Source: Thermoplasmata archaeon
GTDB lineage: Archaea; Thermoplasmatota; Thermoplasmata; Thermoplasmatales; Thermoplasmataceae
Reading direction: 5' to 3'
Length of the DNA stretch: 64,000 nucleotides
Assembly: GCA_021797555.1 (NCBI GenBank)
Contig: JAJZZM010000001.1
Location: 104,874-168,873 of the forward strand
Part shown: in pieces, positions 13,082-38,910 of the stretch
Layout: each line of letters starts with the position of its first letter
Position numbering within the stretch: position 1 is the first letter of the stretch
The notes under the pieces: generated by a model
The model's input: only the letters and a program-made list of their open reading frames with translations
What the model was told of the DNA's origin: nothing
The model's database searches: none
Made by a program: the position numbers and the translations under genes

Positions 13082-13690
13082 TTAAAGCCATTTTATATTC
13101 TTCATTATTTGTATAATTTCTTTAATATTCTCTATTTCATAATCCTTGTGGTCTGATTCCTTTTTATTCCCATGTGTGACCAGGACGGAAATGCAGTGCA
13201 AATTTTTGGCAGGAATTAAATCATTGTCTATATCACCAACAACCACGGTATCCTCAGGTTCTATTCCCATTAGATTTATGGCCTTTAAATATGGTTCCGT
13301 GCTGGGCTTCCCATTTTTGACATCATCCATTGTAATTATGGCATCAACGCTTAAATTGAGTTTATCTATTAATTTCCTTCTGGATGATGTTACAACTGCT
13401 ATTTTTATATTATTGGATTTTAAAATGCTAAATGTGTCTTCAACATCACTAAAAAATCTTACATTGCCTATATTTTCATAAAAATATTTTTCCTCACGCA
13501 TCTCAATTTCGGGATTGACCGCATTCATTTTTTTTATTAGCATTGAGCCGGGATAACCGATCATCAGCTTGATTACCTCTGGGTCTGAATCAATATTATA
13601 ATCCTTGAATGCCCTTTTCCATGCCTCTACCCGATAATCTATTGAATTCCATATTGTTCCATCAAGATCAAATATTATTCCTTTTACCAT
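13082..13690 (-). CDS. HAD-superfamily phosphatase (phosphoglycolate phosphatase-like)
   Basis: Haloacid-dehalogenase hydrolase, probably a small-molecule phosphatase. About 202 residues from ATG at 13690. Motif I is FDLDGTIWN right after the start, motif II is AVVTSSRR, motif III is the Lys in NGKPSTEPY, and motif IV is VVVGDIDNDL. An alpha-helical cap lies between motifs I and II. A longer frame starts at 13708, but GAGGTGG upstream of 13690 acts as the ribosome-binding site, and 13690 gives the canonical short N-terminus. Substrate unknown. It follows a 66-codon ORF by 14 bp and may be co-transcribed with it. Confidence 0.85.
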   Translation of the reverse strand: MVKGIIFDLDGTIWNSIDYRVEAWKRAFKDYNIDSDPEVIKLMIGYPGSMLIKKMNAVNPEIEMREEKYFYENIGNVRFFSDVEDTFSILKSNNIKIAVVTSSRRKLIDKLNLSVDAIITMDDVKNGKPSTEPYLKAINLMGIEPEDTVVVGDIDNDLIPAKNLHCISVLVTHGNKKESDHKDYEIENIKEIIQIMKNIKWL

Positions 13691-13704
13691 AAATGTGAGC
13701 CACC

Positions 13705-13928: not shown

Positions 13929-14033
13929 TTATTTCCAGAAATTCATCCACATCACAGGTTCAGTGGCTTTCTTTTTGGTATGTTGATTTGTAAATTTAAC
14001 CCTTGTTATTACTACATCACCTGGATCAGGCAC
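13929..14033 (-). pseudogene. Truncated PemK/MazF-like toxin remnant
   Basis: A 34-codon frame from GTG at 14033 to TAA at 13929. Its start overlaps the upstream antitoxin stop by 8 bp, the usual coupling of a toxin-antitoxin pair. The translated beginning PDPGDVVITRVKFTNQ matches the N-terminal beta-strand of PemK/MazF-like toxins (P-x-x-GDVV-x-x-x-F-x-F-T). Family toxins are about 100-120 residues, so this copy has lost roughly two thirds and should be inactive. A related stretch recurs at 19000-19065. Confidence 0.6.
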
Positions 14034-14250
14034 GTTCCCACCCTGAGTAATCACCTTCCTCCCAGAGCTTTTTCATCCTCTCCTTCTGAGCTTTTTGTAG
14101 GAATATTCCCAACTCCTTTGCTTCTTCTGCATTTTTTATGAGATTAAGAATGGTTTCACTATAAGTCTCCCGAGGATATCTCTTAATTTTTTTAAGTTCG
14201 TTTAAAACCGATCTTTCAATCCGAATTGTTGTGATTTCCGATTTTATCAC
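14026..14250 (-). CDS. Ribbon-helix-helix-like antitoxin
   Basis: 74 residues. The beginning TTIRIERSVLNELKKIKRYPRETYSETI fits archaeal ribbon-helix-helix antitoxins with the K-R-x-x-RETY element (DUF7557-like). The charged C-terminal half would wrap the toxin. The start is GTG at 14250. Its partner downstream is a truncated PemK/MazF-like frame, so the antitoxin has probably outlived its toxin. Family role: binds its operator and neutralises the toxin. Confidence 0.7.
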   Translation of the reverse strand: MIKSEITTIRIERSVLNELKKIKRYPRETYSETILNLIKNAEEAKELGIFLQKAQKERMKKLWEEGDYSGWERA

Positions 14251-14609
14251 TATTAATCATCTATATTTGGCATATAACTATTTATATTTTAATACATAGG
14301 ATACTATATAATATTTTTGAATCCAGATTTTTATGCTATCAACAAATAAGATGATTCGCTTCTAACTTTTATCAGCAATCTATTGAATTTATTTCAAACT
14401 TATATAGAAAATAATACATTCCCTGTGATGCTGTTACTAATAATAAGTTCATTTATAGTTAGAATGTTTAAGTAGAGATTTCATTAAAGTTTTAAGCTAA
14501 TACCAAGTGAATGCAAAGATTCCCTATATAATGATTCTCTCTTTGTAGTTTATTTTAGATTACATATAGTAATACATAATTTTAATATAGATATAAAATA
14601 TTATGTAGT
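14251..14609. other. Intergenic region between two divergent toxin-antitoxin loci
   Basis: 359 bp of AT-rich DNA between two divergent antitoxin genes. I see a TATA-like box (about 14585-14592) for the VapB gene at 14610, at leaderless distance, and nothing else: no frame with a recognisable product and no clear repeat. Confidence 0.5.
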
Positions 14610-14837
14610 ATGAAAATGTATACCACGGTATCCGCAAAGATCTCAGAGGAGGAAAGGGAAGAATTAAAGAAATTAGGATTAAATCCAACAGAAATTATCA
14701 GAAAGGCAATAAGGGATGAAATAAGAAAAGCGCATAATAAAGCCTTAATAGAGAAAATGAAGAGTGTAATGCCAGTTATATCAAAATTGAATATGGATGA
14801 AATAGTTTCAGACATCAGGGAGGATAGGGAAAGATGA
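14610..14837 (+). CDS. vapB: VapB-type antitoxin
   Basis: 75 residues; YTTVSAKISEEEREELKKLGLNPTEIIRKAIRDEI is a ribbon-helix-helix-like DNA-binding domain, followed by a charged helix and SDIREDRER, a typical VapB tail that blocks the PIN active site. It overlaps the PIN gene by 4 bp (ATGA). A TATA box about 25 bp upstream suggests a leaderless transcript. Role: represses its own operon and neutralises the adjacent VapC. Confidence 0.85.
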   Translation: MKMYTTVSAKISEEEREELKKLGLNPTEIIRKAIRDEIRKAHNKALIEKMKSVMPVISKLNMDEIVSDIREDRER

Positions 14838-15217
14838 ATCTGCTTGATGCCTCCGCAATTTTTAACCTATTTCAGAGAGGCAAGTATAATGAACTTATTG
14901 CCGGGGCAACGAATCAGCTCGCCAGATACGAGATAGGTAATGTTCTGTGGAAAAGCTATAAAATTCGAAATGAAATTTCCAAGAAAGAGGCAATGGAATT
15001 GGGTAATGTTATATTTGAATTAATTGATTCGATGGAGCAGATAAAGCCATCACCAGATTCTGTACTTAAACTCTCAATAGAGGATGGAATTACATTTTAT
15101 GATTCATCCTATCTCGTATCTGCTATTGAATCAGGTTATGATTTTGTTACCGATGATTTAAAACTGTACAGGATTGCAAGCCCTAAAGTGATTACACGAA
15201 AGAGCCTGGATTTATAA
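14834..15217 (+). CDS. vapC: VapC-type PIN-domain toxin
   Basis: PIN-domain ribonuclease toxin, 127 residues. The acidic residues expected for the metal site are present: Asp in LLDASAIFNL at the start, Glu in ARYEIGNVLW, Asp in TFYDSSYLVSA and Asp in DFVTDDLKLYR. It overlaps the antitoxin by 4 bp, so the pair should be translated together. The frame is intact and probably functional. Characterised VapC toxins cut tRNA or rRNA; the target here is unknown. Confidence 0.88.
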   Translation: MNLLDASAIFNLFQRGKYNELIAGATNQLARYEIGNVLWKSYKIRNEISKKEAMELGNVIFELIDSMEQIKPSPDSVLKLSIEDGITFYDSSYLVSAIESGYDFVTDDLKLYRIASPKVITRKSLDL

Positions 15218-15428
15218 TTAACCGATTATTCGCTATCATTGTAATTAACTACTTAATCCCAGAGCAGAGAAACTTTATAATCTATATACTAACTTGCCTT
15301 AATAAATATATTATATTTTGTATTTAATATAATGTGTTCATATTTATCTATAAAGGCTTAAATTATCTAATATTAGCATGTATTTAATAAGAGCCTTGTT
15401 TATTGAGCACTTTATTACTGATTTGTGA

Positions 15429-15884
15429 TTATCCAAAATAAATAGAATTTAATCCGGAGGAGAGTGCTACTTTATGAAGTTTTTCATCTCCAGTATAAAA
15501 CTCGTTACAACCAACTTTAATAGCACTTGTAATCTGTAATGCATCAGCAGCATACATATGGTGCTTAATTACAACATCCCAGCTGCTTTCCATTAAACTT
15601 TCCGATAAGATGATTATCCTTATTCTGCCTATCTTCCTGAGCCGGGAAGTCTCGTTGGAGAATATCCCCATAATTTCATCCAACTGTTCCTCTGTAATTC
15701 TTTTTTGCCTGTGTGCCCTGTCAAATACTCCAAGTACTTCTCCGATATTCCAAATATTAAATGAAAGCAGAACATTCCCTAAATATGCTTCGTGGTATTG
15801 TTCACGAATAACTTCCGAACCGGTTTCATACACATATCTCTTTATTATTGCACTGCTATCAAGATATACGATTTTTTCTGTCAT
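15429..15884 (-). CDS. vapC: VapC-type PIN-domain toxin (second module)
   Basis: 151-residue PIN-domain ribonuclease, convergent with the other vapC. The acidic motif residues are present: VYLDSSAIIKRY, then WNIGEVLGVFD, then MYAADALQITSAI and EFYTGDEKLHKVA. The start at 15884 overlaps the antitoxin frame by 26 bp, a longer overlap than usual but with a good ATG. It is unlike the first VapC in sequence, so it was probably acquired independently. Confidence 0.86.
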   Translation of the reverse strand: MTEKIVYLDSSAIIKRYVYETGSEVIREQYHEAYLGNVLLSFNIWNIGEVLGVFDRAHRQKRITEEQLDEIMGIFSNETSRLRKIGRIRIIILSESLMESSWDVVIKHHMYAADALQITSAIKVGCNEFYTGDEKLHKVALSSGLNSIYFG

Positions 15885-16119
15885 CCCTCATGCTCCTTAT
15901 CAGATCTGAAACGTTGCCCTTGGATTTAATTGGCTCAAAATCCAGATCAGCCTTGCTGTATTTTGAATATTTCATTAAGTATTCATCTAAATTTAAATAC
16001 AGCTCATTTTCTATGGTTTCTTTTAATACAGAACTTATGTCCATACCCCGTTGCAATGCAAGATTCTTGAGTTCCACCCAGATCTGTTTATCTATAGATA
16101 TGCTTGTTTTCACTTTCAT
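15859..16119 (-). CDS. vapB: VapB-type antitoxin (second module)
   Basis: 86 residues. The N-terminal TSISIDKQIWVELKNLALQRGMDISSVLKETIENEL is a ribbon-helix-helix domain. The C-terminal SDLIRSMRDDRKNRIS is the toxin-binding tail ending within the start of vapC. It should form a complex with the downstream PIN protein and autoregulate. Start ATG at 16119. Confidence 0.83.
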   Translation of the reverse strand: MKVKTSISIDKQIWVELKNLALQRGMDISSVLKETIENELYLNLDEYLMKYSKYSKADLDFEPIKSKGNVSDLIRSMRDDRKNRIS

Positions 16120-19084: not shown

Positions 19085-21787
19085 TTAAATTAAATTTTTG
19101 TCAATTGATACATCCAGATGGTTATTAACAACTTTCGGAACGATGGTTGTATTTACATACATTGACAGGCTATCATGGTAATTTTTAGATTCAGAGGTAA
19201 GAAGTATTAATTCTTCATGTATAAACGAATTGATAAACTGGAAAAATACCCTCCAGAATTCATTCTGATAAATCATTGAACTCCCTCTTTTCTGTATCGG
19301 TACAACATCATCAATTTTATAAATAACAAATAATGACCCTTCAAAATTAGATATGCTATTCTTTACTTCAATATACAATTTGCCGGCCAATGTCATTGCC
19401 TGGCCTACATCGCTAACGGGGCGCTGCCTGAAATATGCAGGTGAAAGTGAAAGCATATCTACATCACTGATATCCTCAAGATAGCTATTTATTTCCCTCT
19501 CATGCGATGTTGTAAGTATAATTACATGCCTGCCATTATTATGTGCATATTTAATAATTTCCGATAATAAACGTATTTCATTGCCAGAATTTCCGGCCAA
19601 TAGTGCTACACCGTTTGAAACAGCTATGCTTAAAATATTGCTTTCTGCATTAAAACTGAACTCAAAGTTTTTGGTATTTTTCTTGCCTGATAAATTTATT
19701 ATTGGAGTGTCCTTGACCCTGGAAAACGGATTAAACTTTGAAAGTATAGACCTGACATCATCCTTTGGCTCGGGTGAAATATCCTCATCATGGAATTCTT
19801 CAACGGCATGGTATGAATAATCTTCTTCTACAATGAACGGAAACACAATGTTATATAAATTAATAATAGGGCTATCCTCTTTCTGGGATTTCATCAGATT
19901 AACAATTTCATTTGCCGTTCCAGACCTGTTATATTCAATCCCGTTTTCTACAGAGTATTTCTCCAGCAAACTAACTACGCCATTTTTCTTCTTTAGCCAG
20001 TTTTCAACATCTTTTAACTGGCTATCATTGTATATTTTATGATATTTTACATAGGCTTTTGCTATAACCTCCGGGTCTATGAAGTCCTCAATTGTGGAAT
20101 TTTCCACTCCGATTTTTGATGGTATTAATTTTATCCTGCTTTCTGCCACATTCATTTTCTTTAGTTTTTCCTTTGTATCACGCCCATAAGCATTGTCATT
20201 TAATATAATGTAGAATGGCGTTCCATTATATTGCATCCATAATATATATGAATATATATTGTTGGGTTTATTCTGCCCTATAAAGGTAACATCCATTCTA
20301 GGTATGTTATTTTTAATTATATTGTATTTATTCCAGATAAAATTTAATAAAATTTGATCGGATTTGGTTTCAACAAAAAACACTGTTTTGTTTATAAATA
20401 AGTTATCCAGTATCCCATATCCAAGGGCGGCATATATTGGGGCAAGCACATCCTTCTGGGTCTTCCATCCCTTTTTAAGGTTCATTAAATCTGTAATGGT
20501 GCTTGAGCTCCCGCTTCTCGAAAGAAGAAGAATGCTCTCTGGTATGTCAAGCGGGATAAAAAATGGTAGATGTGTGGTATATATTATGTATATGTTTTTC
20601 GGCAGGTTTTCCCTTAAAAATCCCAGGAAATTTTTCTGTTTACCAGGATGCAATAATATTCCAAGGTCATCAAGCATTAAAAATGAATTATTATACTCGC
20701 CATCCGTTCTTGAATTTAAGTTGATAAATACGCTTAGGAACCATTGAAAACCATCGCTTTCCATGCTTGGTGGCACAAGGTAATCCCGTGATTCCTCAGG
20801 TGTTACCATTACCAATAATATGGGCGATGTTGATTGCTCATATCTGATTTCTAGCCTGCCCTCATCAAAACCCCAGACAGTGGACAATCTTTTGCTGATA
20901 ATATTGCTTGCTTTTTCAAAATATGCTACACGCTGATCAGGATCCATATACTCTATCCTATCAAGTTCAACCTGTGCTAATCGCAGCAGGTTCATAAAAG
21001 TTTTATGCTCATTGGGATTCTCCTTTAATTCGGTTACTGTAACCCGATCCTCCAGCCGGTCATATGCGGAAAAATAAATAAATTTTGGAATTTCACTAAG
21101 AATTTCCGGCACATCAGTCATTGAAAGCTGATCACGCAGCATTTTAATATTTTCATCTATTTGTATTTTTATGTCACTTTCAAAGTCCATATCATTGATG
21201 ATATCAAGCAACATGAATATGCGGTTATAATCAAAATAATTATCATTAACCGCATTTTTTAAACTTTCAAGCTGGATTAACATCTGTGATGTTAATTTAG
21301 GATTATTTGACTGAACTGCAATACTCCGCAAATCATCTATGAAGGGCAGCATTTTATTCTGTATTTTGCCGGAATTTATTACATATTCCTTATTGCCAAT
21401 TTTAATATGGTATGATGAATCAAAAAATTTTGTTACTGTTAATAATTCATCGCTTTCTATGTTGCGCCGTATAGGTTCAAACTCGGCCTCTATTATTTTT
21501 ATCTGGTTGCCGTTTATTTTGCCATTCATATAATTAAAACCTATATCACCAAGCTGTGTAATGTCAAATTTATCAAATTCTGTATCGTAATTTAGTTTCT
21601 CAAGCGCATTTAAAAGGCTGCTTTTGCCTGCCCTGTTTGATCCTATTAAAACCGTGGTTTGATTTTTAATATCAACATATCCGGAATCTACTATCGATCT
21701 AAAATTGGTAACTCTAAAACGTTTTAACCTATATTTTACAGATAAATTCTGTTTATTTGGTTCAAAATTAAGGTTTAAATCTGTCAT
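19085..21787 (-). CDS. OLD-like ABC ATPase/TOPRIM protein with extra C-terminal RecA/KaiC-like domain
   Basis: A 900-residue protein. Residues 20-460 form an SMC/OLD-type ATPase: Walker A GSNRAGKS (49-56), signature-like SDGFQWFLS (344-352), Walker B FLMLDDLG with D373/D374, and H-loop Thr-Thr-His406. Residues 467-600 look like a TOPRIM domain (FFVETKSD with E473; IILNDNAYGRD at 527-537), but the usual DxD aspartates appear as Asn. Residues 705-895 resemble a RecA/KaiC-like ATPase core with a broken P-loop (AGNSGNEI, 731-738, no Lys) and a hydrophobic strand ending in D826/D827. OLD proteins act on DNA and several defend against phage; defence here is inference from family and from the surrounding toxin and transposon relics. 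Single gene with a TATA box about 26 bp upstream. Confidence 0.8.
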   Translation of the reverse strand: MTDLNLNFEPNKQNLSVKYRLKRFRVTNFRSIVDSGYVDIKNQTTVLIGSNRAGKSSLLNALEKLNYDTEFDKFDITQLGDIGFNYMNGKINGNQIKIIEAEFEPIRRNIESDELLTVTKFFDSSYHIKIGNKEYVINSGKIQNKMLPFIDDLRSIAVQSNNPKLTSQMLIQLESLKNAVNDNYFDYNRIFMLLDIINDMDFESDIKIQIDENIKMLRDQLSMTDVPEILSEIPKFIYFSAYDRLEDRVTVTELKENPNEHKTFMNLLRLAQVELDRIEYMDPDQRVAYFEKASNIISKRLSTVWGFDEGRLEIRYEQSTSPILLVMVTPEESRDYLVPPSMESDGFQWFLSVFINLNSRTDGEYNNSFLMLDDLGILLHPGKQKNFLGFLRENLPKNIYIIYTTHLPFFIPLDIPESILLLSRSGSSSTITDLMNLKKGWKTQKDVLAPIYAALGYGILDNLFINKTVFFVETKSDQILLNFIWNKYNIIKNNIPRMDVTFIGQNKPNNIYSYILWMQYNGTPFYIILNDNAYGRDTKEKLKKMNVAESRIKLIPSKIGVENSTIEDFIDPEVIAKAYVKYHKIYNDSQLKDVENWLKKKNGVVSLLEKYSVENGIEYNRSGTANEIVNLMKSQKEDSPIINLYNIVFPFIVEEDYSYHAVEEFHDEDISPEPKDDVRSILSKFNPFSRVKDTPIINLSGKKNTKNFEFSFNAESNILSIAVSNGVALLAGNSGNEIRLLSEIIKYAHNNGRHVIILTTSHEREINSYLEDISDVDMLSLSPAYFRQRPVSDVGQAMTLAGKLYIEVKNSISNFEGSLFVIYKIDDVVPIQKRGSSMIYQNEFWRVFFQFINSFIHEELILLTSESKNYHDSLSMYVNTTIVPKVVNNHLDVSIDKNLI

Positions 21788-22141: not shown

Positions 22142-22807
22142 ATGGATGTTTATGATGCAATAAAAAAGAGGAGGGATGTGAGATCATGGTTCAGTGATGA
22201 AAAAATACCGGATGAAATAATTTCAAAAATACTGCTTGCAGGTCATTATGCACCTTCTGTAGGATTATCTGAACCATGGAATTTTATTATGATAAAAGAT
22301 ATAAATATAAGAAAAAAAGTTAGGGATCTTGTGAATAAAAAAAGGTGTGAATTTTATAATTCGTTGCCCGAAGATAAAAAAGAAAAATTTGAAAAAATAA
22401 AAATAGAAGGCATTTTAGAATCATATGTTAATATAGCAGTAACATGTGATTTTAACAGAAAAGGCCCGGATATACTTGGAAGGGCATTCATAAGGGCAAC
22501 ATCGGAGTACAGCACTGTTCTGGCAATAGAAAATATGTGGCTGGCCGCAAGATCAGAAAATATTGGCATTGGATGGATAAGTTTTTTTAACCCGGAGGAT
22601 GTCAAAAAAATATTAAATATACCGGATGAAATAAAATTAGTGGCATATTTAACTTTGGGAAAATTAACAGAATATCATGATAAACCTGAATTAGAAGAAA
22701 AACAATGGGAAAAAAGGCATAATTTATCGGAGTATATATTTATGGATAAATGGAATAATAAACCGGATGATAATTTTATAAATATTATTAAAAATTCAAG
22801 GATTTAA
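22142..22807 (+). CDS. bluB: BluB-like nitroreductase-fold FMN protein
   Basis: Flavin enzyme of the nitroreductase superfamily, closest by motif to BluB, which breaks down FMN to make 5,6-dimethylbenzimidazole, the lower ligand of cobalamin. 221 residues. Seen: KKRRDVRSWF at the start, HYAPSVGLSEPWNFIMI at about 36-52, GILESYVNIAVTCD, ILGRAFIRATSEYST, ENMWLAARSENIGIGWISFF and the C-terminal PELEEKQWEKR. These match BluB rather than ordinary nitroreductases. No cobalamin gene lies nearby, so another flavin chemistry is possible. Overlaps the NUDIX gene tail to tail by 12 bp. Confidence 0.78.
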   Translation: MDVYDAIKKRRDVRSWFSDEKIPDEIISKILLAGHYAPSVGLSEPWNFIMIKDINIRKKVRDLVNKKRCEFYNSLPEDKKEKFEKIKIEGILESYVNIAVTCDFNRKGPDILGRAFIRATSEYSTVLAIENMWLAARSENIGIGWISFFNPEDVKKILNIPDEIKLVAYLTLGKLTEYHDKPELEEKQWEKRHNLSEYIFMDKWNNKPDDNFINIIKNSRI

Positions 22808-32350: not shown

Positions 32351-32701
32351 TACATTATCCTGGAATATATCAAGGCCTATGGCATTAAAATATATGATAA
32401 AAAAATAATTGAACCGATGCCTAAAAAATGCCCGAGATGCAATTCATTAAACCCGGAAGATGCAAAATACTGCCATAACTGCCGGCTTCCATTCGATGAG
32501 AAATTAGCATTGGAATATGAAAATGGGGAAAAACGGATTGAGGTCCCAATAGAGAAATCCGAGGCAATACCAGGAATGGCAAAGAAGATGATTGAATCAG
32601 TAACGGAATCCTTTAAATCTAAACTCATAGAGAATGTTTTAGAGGAAATATTAAAGGATCCTAAGCTGTTGAAGAAGTTCAGGAATGAGATGGAAAAATA
32701 A
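32351..32701 (+). pseudogene. C-terminal tail of archaeal integrase with zinc ribbon
   Basis: An open frame from about 32351 reads ILEYIKAYGIKIYDKKIIEP then PKKCPRCNSLNPEDAKYCHN-CRLPFDEK. That is the C-terminal linker and zinc ribbon (C-x2-C...C-x2-C) found on Thermoplasmatales-type Xer recombinases, followed by a helical tail (VLEEILKDPKLLKKFRNEMEK). An ATG at 32417 could express the last 94 residues alone, but the catalytic recombinase domain is missing. Its tail is repeated at 33361-33430. Confidence 0.65.
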
Positions 32702-36198: not shown

Positions 36199-38910
36199 AT
36201 GATAATACAATTTATTAATGATATCATAATTATTGCCCACATGATAAATGAGGATACACTGGTAATAGCCAATCCGGGAACGGGAAAAACAACCAGGATT
36301 GCCGAAGAGGTTGTTGGCCTTATTAAAGATGGAGTCAAAACCGATAGAATATTATGCATAACATTTACAAACAAGGCAGTAGAGAGCTTAGAAAATAAGA
36401 TAAATCAAAAATTAGTTGAAAATAATATAAATAATATAACGGCATATGATTTAAAAATAAGGACATTCCATAGCTTTGCATATGAGGAATTAAATGAAGA
36501 TGATACCATAAATGATATAATATCATATAACCTTGCCAGATATTTAATTTATAAAAAATTAAGAGAACTGAAAGCATTTAATTATTCAAGGGATTATGTA
36601 ATAAGTAATATAATACCAAAATTAGAGAATGCTATAAGATATTTAAAAAGTTTTGGAATAAAACCACACGATATTAAAAATAATAGGGATACAATAAAAG
36701 AATTAATAATTAAAAAACACGATGAAAATGTTAAAAACATCGGTCGTGAGGAGGAGGAATATTTATTTGATTATTTCTATGAGGCCTTTGACTATTATGA
36801 AAATAATAAAAAATATTATGATTATAATGATTTATTATTTGAATTTATTAAAAAGGAAAACAAAAACGAATATGATTATATATTTGTTGACGAACTGCAG
36901 GATGTAAATAATATAGAAGCAGAGATAGCAAATAATGCAGGGCATAAAAAATATTTTGTAGGGGATAAAAAACAGTCCATATTTGGATTCCAGGGTGGGG
37001 CCTTGTCCGTTTTTAAGGAGCTCATTGACAATAGCACCATAAATAAAATTTACCTGGAAAAAAACCATAGAAGCACTGACGCAATACTGAATTATTCAAA
37101 GGAATTTTATTTAAAATATTCCAATGACAATTCCGATGAACTGGATAAATTTAATGGCGAGAAGGGCAGGGGTGAACCTGTAAAAATAATTGAATCCGAT
37201 GAACCCGAAAATTCAATAATAGAAATTATAAACGAAATAGAGAAAAAATCCGATAAAAAAATAGGCATAATTGCAAGAACAAATGATCAGATAGATAAAA
37301 TATCAAAAATATTTGATGGCTATAATATAAAATATACAAGTGATTCAAATATACATACAGTAAATGAAGCAAAAAAGGATATAATAGATTTTTTTAGGGG
37401 AATATTTTATGATGATAATGATGATATTATAAAGGCGATATTCTCACCGTTTTCAGGCCTATCATTAAAGGCAGCATTTGAAATTTCAGATAAAATAAAT
37501 AATGAAAATAATTTACTGGAGTTTTATAATGAACCATTTTTTTCCCTAAAGAAGAAGGATTTCAATAAGGAAACAGTAAATGAATTATTTAACAAAAATA
37601 TATTGCCTATAGCAGCATCAATAAGCAATGAGTATTTTTTAACAGCCGCAACAGTAAAATCATCATTGAAAGAATTCTTTGATGTTGAGGATAATTATAC
37701 AAGAAAAAATTTTTTTGATTATTTGGAACTGGCATATTCTGAAAACGAAAACATATCGAATGAGGGGAAAATAATATTGACAACAGTACATAAGGCAAAA
37801 GGCCGTGAATTCGACAATGTAATATATTTACCAAAAAAGAAAAGGAAAACGGATTCGTATATAGATATAATAACATCATCAATTATTAGTGTAATAAAAA
37901 ATATAGATGTTGACAATGAATTAATGGAAGAGGATATAAGAGTGGATTTTGTGGCATTTACAAGGGCAAAATATAATTTATATATAGCTCTAAAATCAAA
38001 GGAATCCGATTATTATTATATAAATAATTATTCTGACATTAAAAAATTGTCAAATATAGAGAACAGTATTGCAATACCGGATAAAAATAGATATGATGAG
38101 GCATATATGAAATTTGTCAACGGAGAATATGAGGATGCTATAAAAATTTTAAATGAAAAAGATGACTGGCTAAGGAATTTGATTTATAATTTCTTTAAGA
38201 ATAAAACAAAATTATCATTTTCATTGATAAGCATAGATAACCCATACTGGTTTTTAAAGAATTACATATTAAAGTTAAATGAAAAAACCGATGCCCTGTA
38301 CTACGGTTCAAATGCGCATGATTTTGCAGAATCCATATATAAAAACGAGCTCGATATGGAATCTGTTGATGAAGAGTATAAAGATGTTGTAGCAAATATA
38401 AAATCGGTTATTAATGCGATAAAAACAGGATTCAACATGGAGCAGATAGCCGCCGAAGTTGGTGGGGCAATAAGGGTTAACCAGATGTTTGATGAATTTA
38501 AAAATGTTGATGATTCAATAACATTTTTCGGCAAGCTTGATGCGGTTTTCAGCGATGGCGATAAATATTTAATCCTTGATTATAAAACTGATAAAAATAG
38601 CAATAACATACGCCATCACAGGGTTCAGCTATTATCATATAAAATACTGTATTCGGTAAAAAATAACATAGACATAAATAAAATAAGCACTGCCCTTGGC
38701 TATATAAGCATGAGGGGCAACATAAATACCCACAGGAATGACAGCGGTGTTTTTTACAAGGAACCGGATAAATATTCTGAAAAAACGTTAAAAGGTTATA
38801 TAAAAAGGTTTTTGGATTATAGGGAAAACCCTGAAATATATATAAAAGACCTTATCAATTCTGATAACAATGATACCCTGTTTAACAGGTTGATAAATAT
38901 TCTTAAATAA
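36199..38910 (+). CDS. UvrD/AddA-like helicase with C-terminal RecB-type nuclease
   Basis: Superfamily 1 DNA helicase fused to a PD-(D/E)XK nuclease; family role is processing or degrading DNA ends in repair. 903 residues: Walker A NPGTGKTT (25-32), motif Ia ITFTNKAVESL, Walker B FVDELQDV with D231/E232, motif III GDKKQSIFGFQGG, motif V TVHKAKGREFDNVIYL, motif VI VAFTRAKYNLYIAL, then a nuclease near 690-860 with GKLDAVF (D781) and LDYKT (793-797). ATG 36241 would give a start just before Walker A and is also possible. No AddB partner is nearby. Confidence 0.88.
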   Translation: MIIQFINDIIIIAHMINEDTLVIANPGTGKTTRIAEEVVGLIKDGVKTDRILCITFTNKAVESLENKINQKLVENNINNITAYDLKIRTFHSFAYEELNEDDTINDIISYNLARYLIYKKLRELKAFNYSRDYVISNIIPKLENAIRYLKSFGIKPHDIKNNRDTIKELIIKKHDENVKNIGREEEEYLFDYFYEAFDYYENNKKYYDYNDLLFEFIKKENKNEYDYIFVDELQDVNNIEAEIANNAGHKKYFVGDKKQSIFGFQGGALSVFKELIDNSTINKIYLEKNHRSTDAILNYSKEFYLKYSNDNSDELDKFNGEKGRGEPVKIIESDEPENSIIEIINEIEKKSDKKIGIIARTNDQIDKISKIFDGYNIKYTSDSNIHTVNEAKKDIIDFFRGIFYDDNDDIIKAIFSPFSGLSLKAAFEISDKINNENNLLEFYNEPFFSLKKKDFNKETVNELFNKNILPIAASISNEYFLTAATVKSSLKEFFDVEDNYTRKNFFDYLELAYSENENISNEGKIILTTVHKAKGREFDNVIYLPKKKRKTDSYIDIITSSIISVIKNIDVDNELMEEDIRVDFVAFTRAKYNLYIALKSKESDYYYINNYSDIKKLSNIENSIAIPDKNRYDEAYMKFVNGEYEDAIKILNEKDDWLRNLIYNFFKNKTKLSFSLISIDNPYWFLKNYILKLNEKTDALYYGSNAHDFAESIYKNELDMESVDEEYKDVVANIKSVINAIKTGFNMEQIAAEVGGAIRVNQMFDEFKNVDDSITFFGKLDAVFSDGDKYLILDYKTDKNSNNIRHHRVQLLSYKILYSVKNNIDINKISTALGYISMRGNINTHRNDSGVFYKEPDKYSEKTLKGYIKRFLDYRENPEIYIKDLINSDNNDTLFNRLINILK

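Follow-up and report, generated by a model that had tools for sequence, protein, structure and literature searches.

An archaeal OLD-family ATPase–TOPRIM protein with an altered TOPRIM site and a predicted RecA/KaiC-fold C-terminal domain

We analysed a 64,000-bp stretch of DNA from a Thermoplasmata archaeon (the window; contig JAJZZM010000001.1, positions 104,874–168,873) and found that one of its genes encodes a 900-aa protein in which an OLD-type ABC ATPase and a TOPRIM region are followed by a C-terminal domain (CTD) with a predicted RecA/KaiC fold. This architecture, seen in two related acid-loving archaea and built on a family best known for antiviral defence, is well supported; the function is inferred. 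The altered DNA-cutting site, together with the extra domain, suggests sensing rather than cutting. We favour, at a probability of about 0.4, the reading that this is a single-gene, accessory member of the OLD family, shifted from cutting towards sensing, with a dead RecA-like adaptor akin to part of an Hsp70-linked host protein, and that it probably acts against mobile elements.

Results

The gene and its OLD-type ATPase part

The genome, 1.94 Mb in size and 99.56% complete, carries the ORF on contig C14. A sister species (G148; JAJZZE010000052.1, a Thermoplasmata archaeon MAG, locus L035) has an orthologue that is equally long and 97% identical, and neither gene of the pair contained an internal stop. 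The features of the gene and its surroundings are collected in Table 1.

Table 1. Features of the 900-aa gene and its flanks in the window
Feature	Residues	Positions	Strand	Basis or remark
Whole gene	900 aa	19085..21787	(-)	ATG start; ORF call, 97% identical equal-length orthologue, dN/dS 0.04
OLD-type ABC ATPase and TOPRIM	~19-655	19823..21733	(-)	Pfam, alignment with relatives, AF2 model, fold search
Walker A GSNRAGKS, intact	49-56	21620..21643	(-)	alignment with relatives
ABC Walker B LMLDD	370-374	20666..20680	(-)	Asp at catalytic Glu position
TOPRIM region; E473, D477, T565, E567 kept	~466-570	20078..20392	(-)	alignment, AF2 model
NDN replacing TOPRIM DxD	530-532	20192..20200	(-)	alignment; sister protein identical here
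Acid-rich linker	~656-708	19664..19822	(-)	sequence; low pLDDT flanking on both sides
RecA/KaiC-fold CTD (predicted)	~709-898	19094..19663	(-)	AF2, fold search, sister profile match 709-898
GNSGNE at CTD P-loop position, without Walker A Lys or Ser/Thr	732-737	19577..19594	(-)	alignment, model
LFVIY at CTD Walker B strand position, without Asp	819-823	19319..19333	(-)	alignment, model
HAD hydrolase, one flank		13082..13693	(-)	Pfam HAD_2 1.7e-30; orthologues in G148, G110
VapB-like ORF		14029-14250		at its Pfam cut-off
PIN ORF		14834-15214		below Pfam cut-off
PIN ORF		15432-15884		over Pfam cut-off
RHH ORF		15862-16119		below Pfam cut-off
Nitroreductase, other flank		22142..22807	(+)	Pfam 3.2e-27

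The preliminary description of this DNA took the first 600 or so residues for an OLD-type ATPase plus TOPRIM, and Pfam, the alignment with relatives, and the model of residues 1–665 with its fold search all agreed with this. Pfam AAA_15 and AAA_21 matched the protein at 1.8e-10 (41.5 bits, cut-off 32.1) and 1.9e-8 (35.2 bits, cut-off 27). Five PADLOC models matched as well (AriA, the best, then AbiLi, PtuA, Old and GajA), and phmmer matched OLD relatives at E as low as 3.2e-47. The AF2 model of residues 1–665 (35 alignment rows) had a pLDDT of 79.1 and a pTM of 0.67. Its top Foldseek match was Thermus scotoductus OLD (PDB 6p74; E 1e-11, TMq only 0.27), closely followed by Rad50 and PtuA, and a VIA comparison, mainly covering residues 8–458, matched the ABC heads of SMC, Rad50 and PtuA with Z of 17.9–19.7. 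Walker A, signature, Walker B and H-loop could all be aligned, as in an ABC head of the OLD/Rad50 type. The catalytic Glu position of Walker B varied among the 38 aligned rows (Glu 21, Asn 10, Asp 6, Ser 1).

The TOPRIM site reads NxN in place of DxD

No TOPRIM Pfam model scored on the 900-aa protein itself. The region was assigned by aligning the protein throughout with its relatives; PF20469 scored over its cut-off in 20 of 35 of these. In the model of residues 1–665, where the region was folded together with the ABC part, the predicted order of strands and helices fits a TOPRIM domain after an ABC head. The alignment comprised the 900-aa protein and 37 relatives (38 rows); the sister protein, two short or split frames (L048, L072) and a locus with no ORF (L066) were left out. 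The catalytic Glu of TOPRIM was present, and DxD was NxN. Of the 38 rows, 36 had Asp at the first DxD position and one (L073) had Ser, leaving the 900-aa protein as the only one with Asn. The second position was Asp in 21 rows and another residue in 17, including the 900-aa protein, which again was alone in having Asn. G535 lies at the usual spacing, five residues on, which argues against an alignment slip at NDN. G474 and a later GG were also changed, unlike the four acidic and threonine residues listed as kept in Table 1. Because its DxD is NxN, we regard the protein as homologous to OLD nucleases and do not class it as an OLD nuclease.

According to the accessible part of the work on Bp OLD, E400, D455 and D457 belong to metal A, and E404, T506 and E508 to metal B; mutants of single metal ligands were unaffected in activity, and a triple metal-A mutant lost the cleavage of linear DNA with some nicking left (PMC6755086). 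The metal-B candidates of the 900-aa protein were matched to these residues by motif and spacing, without alignment to Bp OLD. As Bp OLD stays active with any single ligand mutated and shows some nicking even with three, the TOPRIM of the 900-aa protein may still nick as well. We therefore predict nicking at most, which falls short of proven inactivity.

The C-terminal domain has a predicted RecA/KaiC fold and degenerate motifs

The CTD matched no Pfam family, and its sequence profile found nothing significant in the PDB, KaiC appearing at E 1.1. An AF2 model of residues 690–900 (13 rows) reached a pLDDT of 81.2 and a pTM of 0.80. The five models scored 81.2, 80.4, 79.6, 60.5 and 50.3, three of them agreeing and two being poor, and the first 17 residues had a pLDDT below 50. 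Foldseek matched the model to RecA and KaiC at E of about 1e-6, and VIA gave KaiC 8db3 as the best match (Z 13.7, 173 residues, 3.2 Å, 11% identity) and RecA 2zr9 at Z 13.5. The model thus predicts a RecA-type core, which bears out the earlier assignment of residues 705–895 to a RecA/KaiC-like fold and speaks against an unrelated one. We had ourselves considered, from its motifs, a domain of the HerA/VirB4 type; the matches listed were RecA, KaiC, Rho, FlaH and others, and the absence of HerA among them is no disproof.

Judged by the Walker A and Walker B consensus, the CTD lacks both the Lys-Ser/Thr and the Asp of a RecA/KaiC ATPase. ATP hydrolysis by the CTD would be unexpected because its P-loop is GNSGNE and its Walker B strand LFVIY. 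Other residues were invariant between the CTD and its relatives despite these losses, for example LAxKL and E-W-x-x-FF. With NxN in the TOPRIM and neither P-loop Lys nor Walker B Asp in the CTD, two working enzyme domains are unlikely. A normal OLD tail, which would cancel the novelty of the architecture, was also considered for the CTD and ruled out: none of the 37 aligned OLD relatives has the domain, and they have at most 31 residues after position 640. Among 41 OLD ORFs, the CTD profile matched the sister protein alone.

RecA/KaiC-fold proteins form rings or filaments. This habit would suit the view that the 900-aa protein is an OLD defence nuclease with a weakened or nicking TOPRIM, and that its CTD serves solely for oligomerisation or stability. 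The retained E473, D477, T565 and E567, the non-Asp residues at the second DxD position in 17 rows, and the tolerance of Bp OLD for single ligand changes, with some nicking by its triple metal-A mutant (PMC6755086), point the same way. The Asn at the first DxD position, found in this one row of 38, and the changes at G474 and the GG after it argue against such a nuclease, and we consider it rather unlikely.

The CTD is related to a host protein encoded beside an Hsp70-like gene

The CTD was related (24–30%) to the C-terminal half of a protein of ~430 aa. In the same genome this protein is encoded on contig C21, and it matched CTD residues 715–895 with 30% identity. Genus g1 had it in 9 of its 10 genomes (one copy cut) and genus g11 in 3 of 3. 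Across 292 genomes sampled from the phylum, the CTD profile found it in 9, each of them g1 or g11, and a profile of the full-length protein found it in 10 of 250 genomes of a class sample, with three further weak matches (E 0.003–0.012). The ~430-aa protein matched no Pfam family and exceeded the cut-off of no NCBIfam model, and its sequence profile matched nothing in the PDB. Its P-loop-like GKKGDGKI keeps the Lys and not the Ser/Thr, and the loop was shortened in two genomes. By its kinship to the modelled CTD, the C-terminal half of this protein is judged to be RecA-like and degenerate. In the CTD tree, a single long branch (2.16) carried the window and sister proteins; the tree program cautioned that long branches meet.

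In every one of 12 genomes (nine full loci and three partial), the ~430-aa gene and an Hsp70-like gene lay side by side in divergent orientation, and the Hsp70-like protein had 565–584 aa where complete. The window genome encodes a separate DnaK elsewhere, which scored higher (670 vs 404 bits). The pair in this genome, on contig C21, is L096:7883-9169 (the ~430-aa protein) and L096:5992-7743 (the second Hsp70); the other loci are L104, L101, L099, L105, L100, L102, L103, L095, L007, L019 and L020. The host protein to which the CTD is related may therefore, as judged by gene order, work with the second Hsp70. The link to Hsp70 belongs to the ~430-aa relative and not to the 900-aa gene. As a separate observation, genome G200 encodes a 646-aa protein (L094:5240-7177, the same as L089:274-2214) in which a different C-terminal part follows the N-terminal half known from the ~430-aa family; its gene adjoins a probable family-2 glycosyltransferase gene, judged by eye.

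Distribution of the architecture and neighbours of the OLD relatives

A pattern-based scan of one genome per species (84,980 species) found 41 relatives of the OLD protein. An ORF of at least 150 aa was recovered in 40 of the 41 loci, and one of 635–690 aa in 26. The full architecture, OLD part plus CTD, was found in the window species and one sister species only; the proposed search for it in other archaea thus did return a second case, which is limited to the 97% identical sister protein. Within its own genus, 2 of 10 genomes had the gene; within its family, 2 of 77 did. Among plasmids, 78 records matched, but no single place covered 80% of the query, and one phage record matched residues 335–614 only. 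Searching viral contigs with a few short patterns gave no confirmed relative of the whole protein, its OLD part, the CTD or the ~430-aa family.

Several OLD relatives had features of their own. In L041:1526-4378 and L047:5998-8829 (the same gene as in L004), the ABC part contains an inserted prenyltransferase/squalene-cyclase alpha-alpha toroid (PF00432, 2.7e-56 and 7.7e-60). Three haloarchaeal relatives (L046:4750-7812, L050:1484-4486 and L055:4609-7743) carry ~430 aa ahead of the OLD part, with no Pfam match in this extension in L046 and L055. L057:2026-4023 and L059:5932-7992 have Ala or Gly as the second DxD residue, and the latter adjoins type III R-M genes.

No defence gene adjoined the 900-aa gene by Pfam. 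The neighbours of its homologues, which it had been suggested to list for defence genes, did include named R-M or BREX genes in 5 of 40 loci: type I specificity (L036), type ISP R-M (L037), type III R-M (L038, L059) and BrxL (L065). These came from six genes picked by eye and checked by name. R-M models were matched by the nearest ORFs of the 40 loci (63) and by far ORFs (53) alike, and because this far-gene control also matches them, the defence neighbours are cases and not an enrichment.

The locus and its history

The window shows a HAD hydrolase gene, then toxin–antitoxin (TA) genes, the 900-aa gene, nitroreductase and NUDIX. In G148 it is HAD, the 900-aa gene, nitroreductase and NUDIX, with a phage-type integrase gene (PF00589, 6.9e-23) beyond HAD. 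In G110, a third species without the 900-aa gene, HAD and nitroreductase are 75 bases apart, and the nitroreductase frame is interrupted. The search for a HAD orthologue next to the nitroreductase gave none in G034, G052 and G096. The TA stretch of ~5.4 kb, missing between the same flanks in G148, is a difference separate from the 900-aa gene. In the window, positions 14026-16119 hold the VapB-like ORF and two PIN/antitoxin-like pairs. The gene had been placed in an island of TA genes and transposon relics; TA genes do lie on one side, but the other side holds nitroreductase, NUDIX and aldehyde dehydrogenase genes. Elsewhere in the window, a 94-aa ORF (32417-32698), 65% identical to part of the G148 integrase near HAD, is probably an integrase remnant, and a 903-aa ORF (36199-38907), a UvrD-type helicase by eye, lies 14 kb from the OLD gene, is 80% identical in G110, which has no copy of the OLD gene, and is not linked to it.

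Between window and sister species, dN and dS were 0.014 and 0.36 for the whole gene, 0.012 and 0.37 for the OLD part (dN/dS 0.03), and 0.020 and 0.33 for the CTD (dN/dS 0.06). The low ratios in both parts indicated strong purifying selection on both halves. The dS of the gene was below that of four neighbouring genes compared with G148 (0.60–0.89), of the ~430-aa relative of the CTD (1.28) and of the Hsp70 neighbour of the latter (0.89), which hints at a more recent common history, for example by transfer. The presence or absence of the gene between HAD and nitroreductase and its lower dS than the four neighbours fit an accessory gene.

Comparison with known systems

The best sequence-profile match of the 900-aa protein was Thermus scotoductus OLD (6p74, class 1; 8.2e-24), which likewise has an ABC ATPase followed by TOPRIM. 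It differs in having 528 aa, the TOPRIM aspartate and no RecA-like CTD. PtuA (Septu, retron Ec78/Eco7) and AriA (PARIS) share the OLD-type ABC head, as the fold matches and the best PADLOC model, respectively, indicated. The HNH partner of PtuA, PtuB, is encoded by a separate adjacent gene; in the adjacent ORFs tested, Pfam found no HNH. The PARIS effector AriB is likewise a separate gene (PMC12839542, in the part available). No AriB-like TOPRIM nuclease adjoined the 900-aa gene by Pfam, and its own TOPRIM has NxN. GajA of Gabija (class 2 OLD; profile matches from 1.3e-13) also combines ABC ATPase and TOPRIM. It has no RecA-like CTD and works with the helicase GajB, encoded downstream, as described in the accessible text (PMC7049728). 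No UvrD-like helicase was found directly downstream of the 900-aa gene, where the ORFs encode 126, 79 and 133 aa and have no Pfam match.

RecA/KaiC ATPases share the predicted fold of the CTD, which differs from them in lacking the Walker A Lys and the Walker B Asp and in its 11% identity. Dead P-loop domains are described in DndH (PMC10853773), and inactive domains of BREX-related systems have been proposed to be sensors, binders or decoys (PMC12839542). These proteins with dead P-loop or nuclease domains belong to other families, and the available parts of the two papers describe no OLD-RecA fusion. A literature search upheld the earlier view that the order OLD ATPase, TOPRIM, RecA/KaiC belongs to no described family, as far as the accessible portions of the papers extend; the portion available of PMC5512222 names both KaiC and OLD, in unrelated places. 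The preliminary description had seen here a candidate for an undescribed system. The papers found do not describe the order, but the gene stands by itself, without an evident linked partner, and has the narrow distribution given above.

Cran1 (class 5 OLD, Sulfolobales) is, like the 900-aa protein, an archaeal OLD-family protein with ABC and TOPRIM parts. The accessible text describes it as a cell-cycle factor and active nickase that is not antiviral, keeps every active-site residue and is vertically inherited in its order (PMC12796447). It weakens a defence reading of the 900-aa protein, and with the kinship of the CTD to the Hsp70-linked ~430-aa protein it would be the precedent for a stress or cell-cycle regulator that is tied to the second Hsp70 and is no defence protein. 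The 900-aa protein, in contrast to Cran1, has NxN at DxD and a patchy presence (2 of the 10 genomes in its genus, with no copy at the site in G110), so that such a regulator appears unlikely.

Discussion

Our preferred reading, a shift from cutting towards sensing, draws on the NxN, the lost CTD motifs beside invariant residues, the selection on both halves, the Hsp70-like neighbour of the ~430-aa relative, the accessory character of the gene and the R-M or BREX neighbours at five OLD loci. It can be put as a mechanism. The ABC heads would bind ATP, dimerise and serve as a nucleotide-gated switch. The TOPRIM would bind nucleic acid without processive cutting, nicking it at most. The RecA-like CTD would be a protein-binding adaptor engaging a partner that it has in common with the ~430-aa host relative; this partner might be the Hsp70-like chaperone or one of its clients. 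In this way the CTD might pass information on the state of the cell, or on an invader, to the OLD switch, and defence against mobile elements is the likeliest purpose. A role against mobile elements is plausible from family membership, and the inactive domains of BREX-related systems (PMC12839542) and DndH (PMC10853773) are, in the parts of these sources that we cite, precedents for a sensor or decoy.

A more speculative proposal, which we rate as quite unlikely, is that of an integrated decoy or guard: an OLD protein would carry a dead relative of the RecA-like half of the Hsp70-tied host protein. An invader that targets the genuine host protein, or its chaperone, would strike the decoy too, and the OLD ABC switch would fire. 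Plant immune receptors have integrated decoys, and the 900-aa protein, if this proposal were true, would be their counterpart on an OLD scaffold. A non-functional relic fusion, which the eroded catalytic motifs of TOPRIM and RecA-like domain might bring to mind, is very improbable, being disfavoured by selection on both halves in two species (dN/dS 0.04), by the intact frames and by folded AF2 models for both parts.

OLD proteins are a recurring scaffold of defence, and the targets that they recognise are often unknown. The sensing protein that we prefer, with an altered cutting site and a fused relative of a recognisable host protein, would make the question of the sensor testable through a common partner. 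It also draws attention to an uncharacterised, Hsp70-linked protein family in two acidophile genera.
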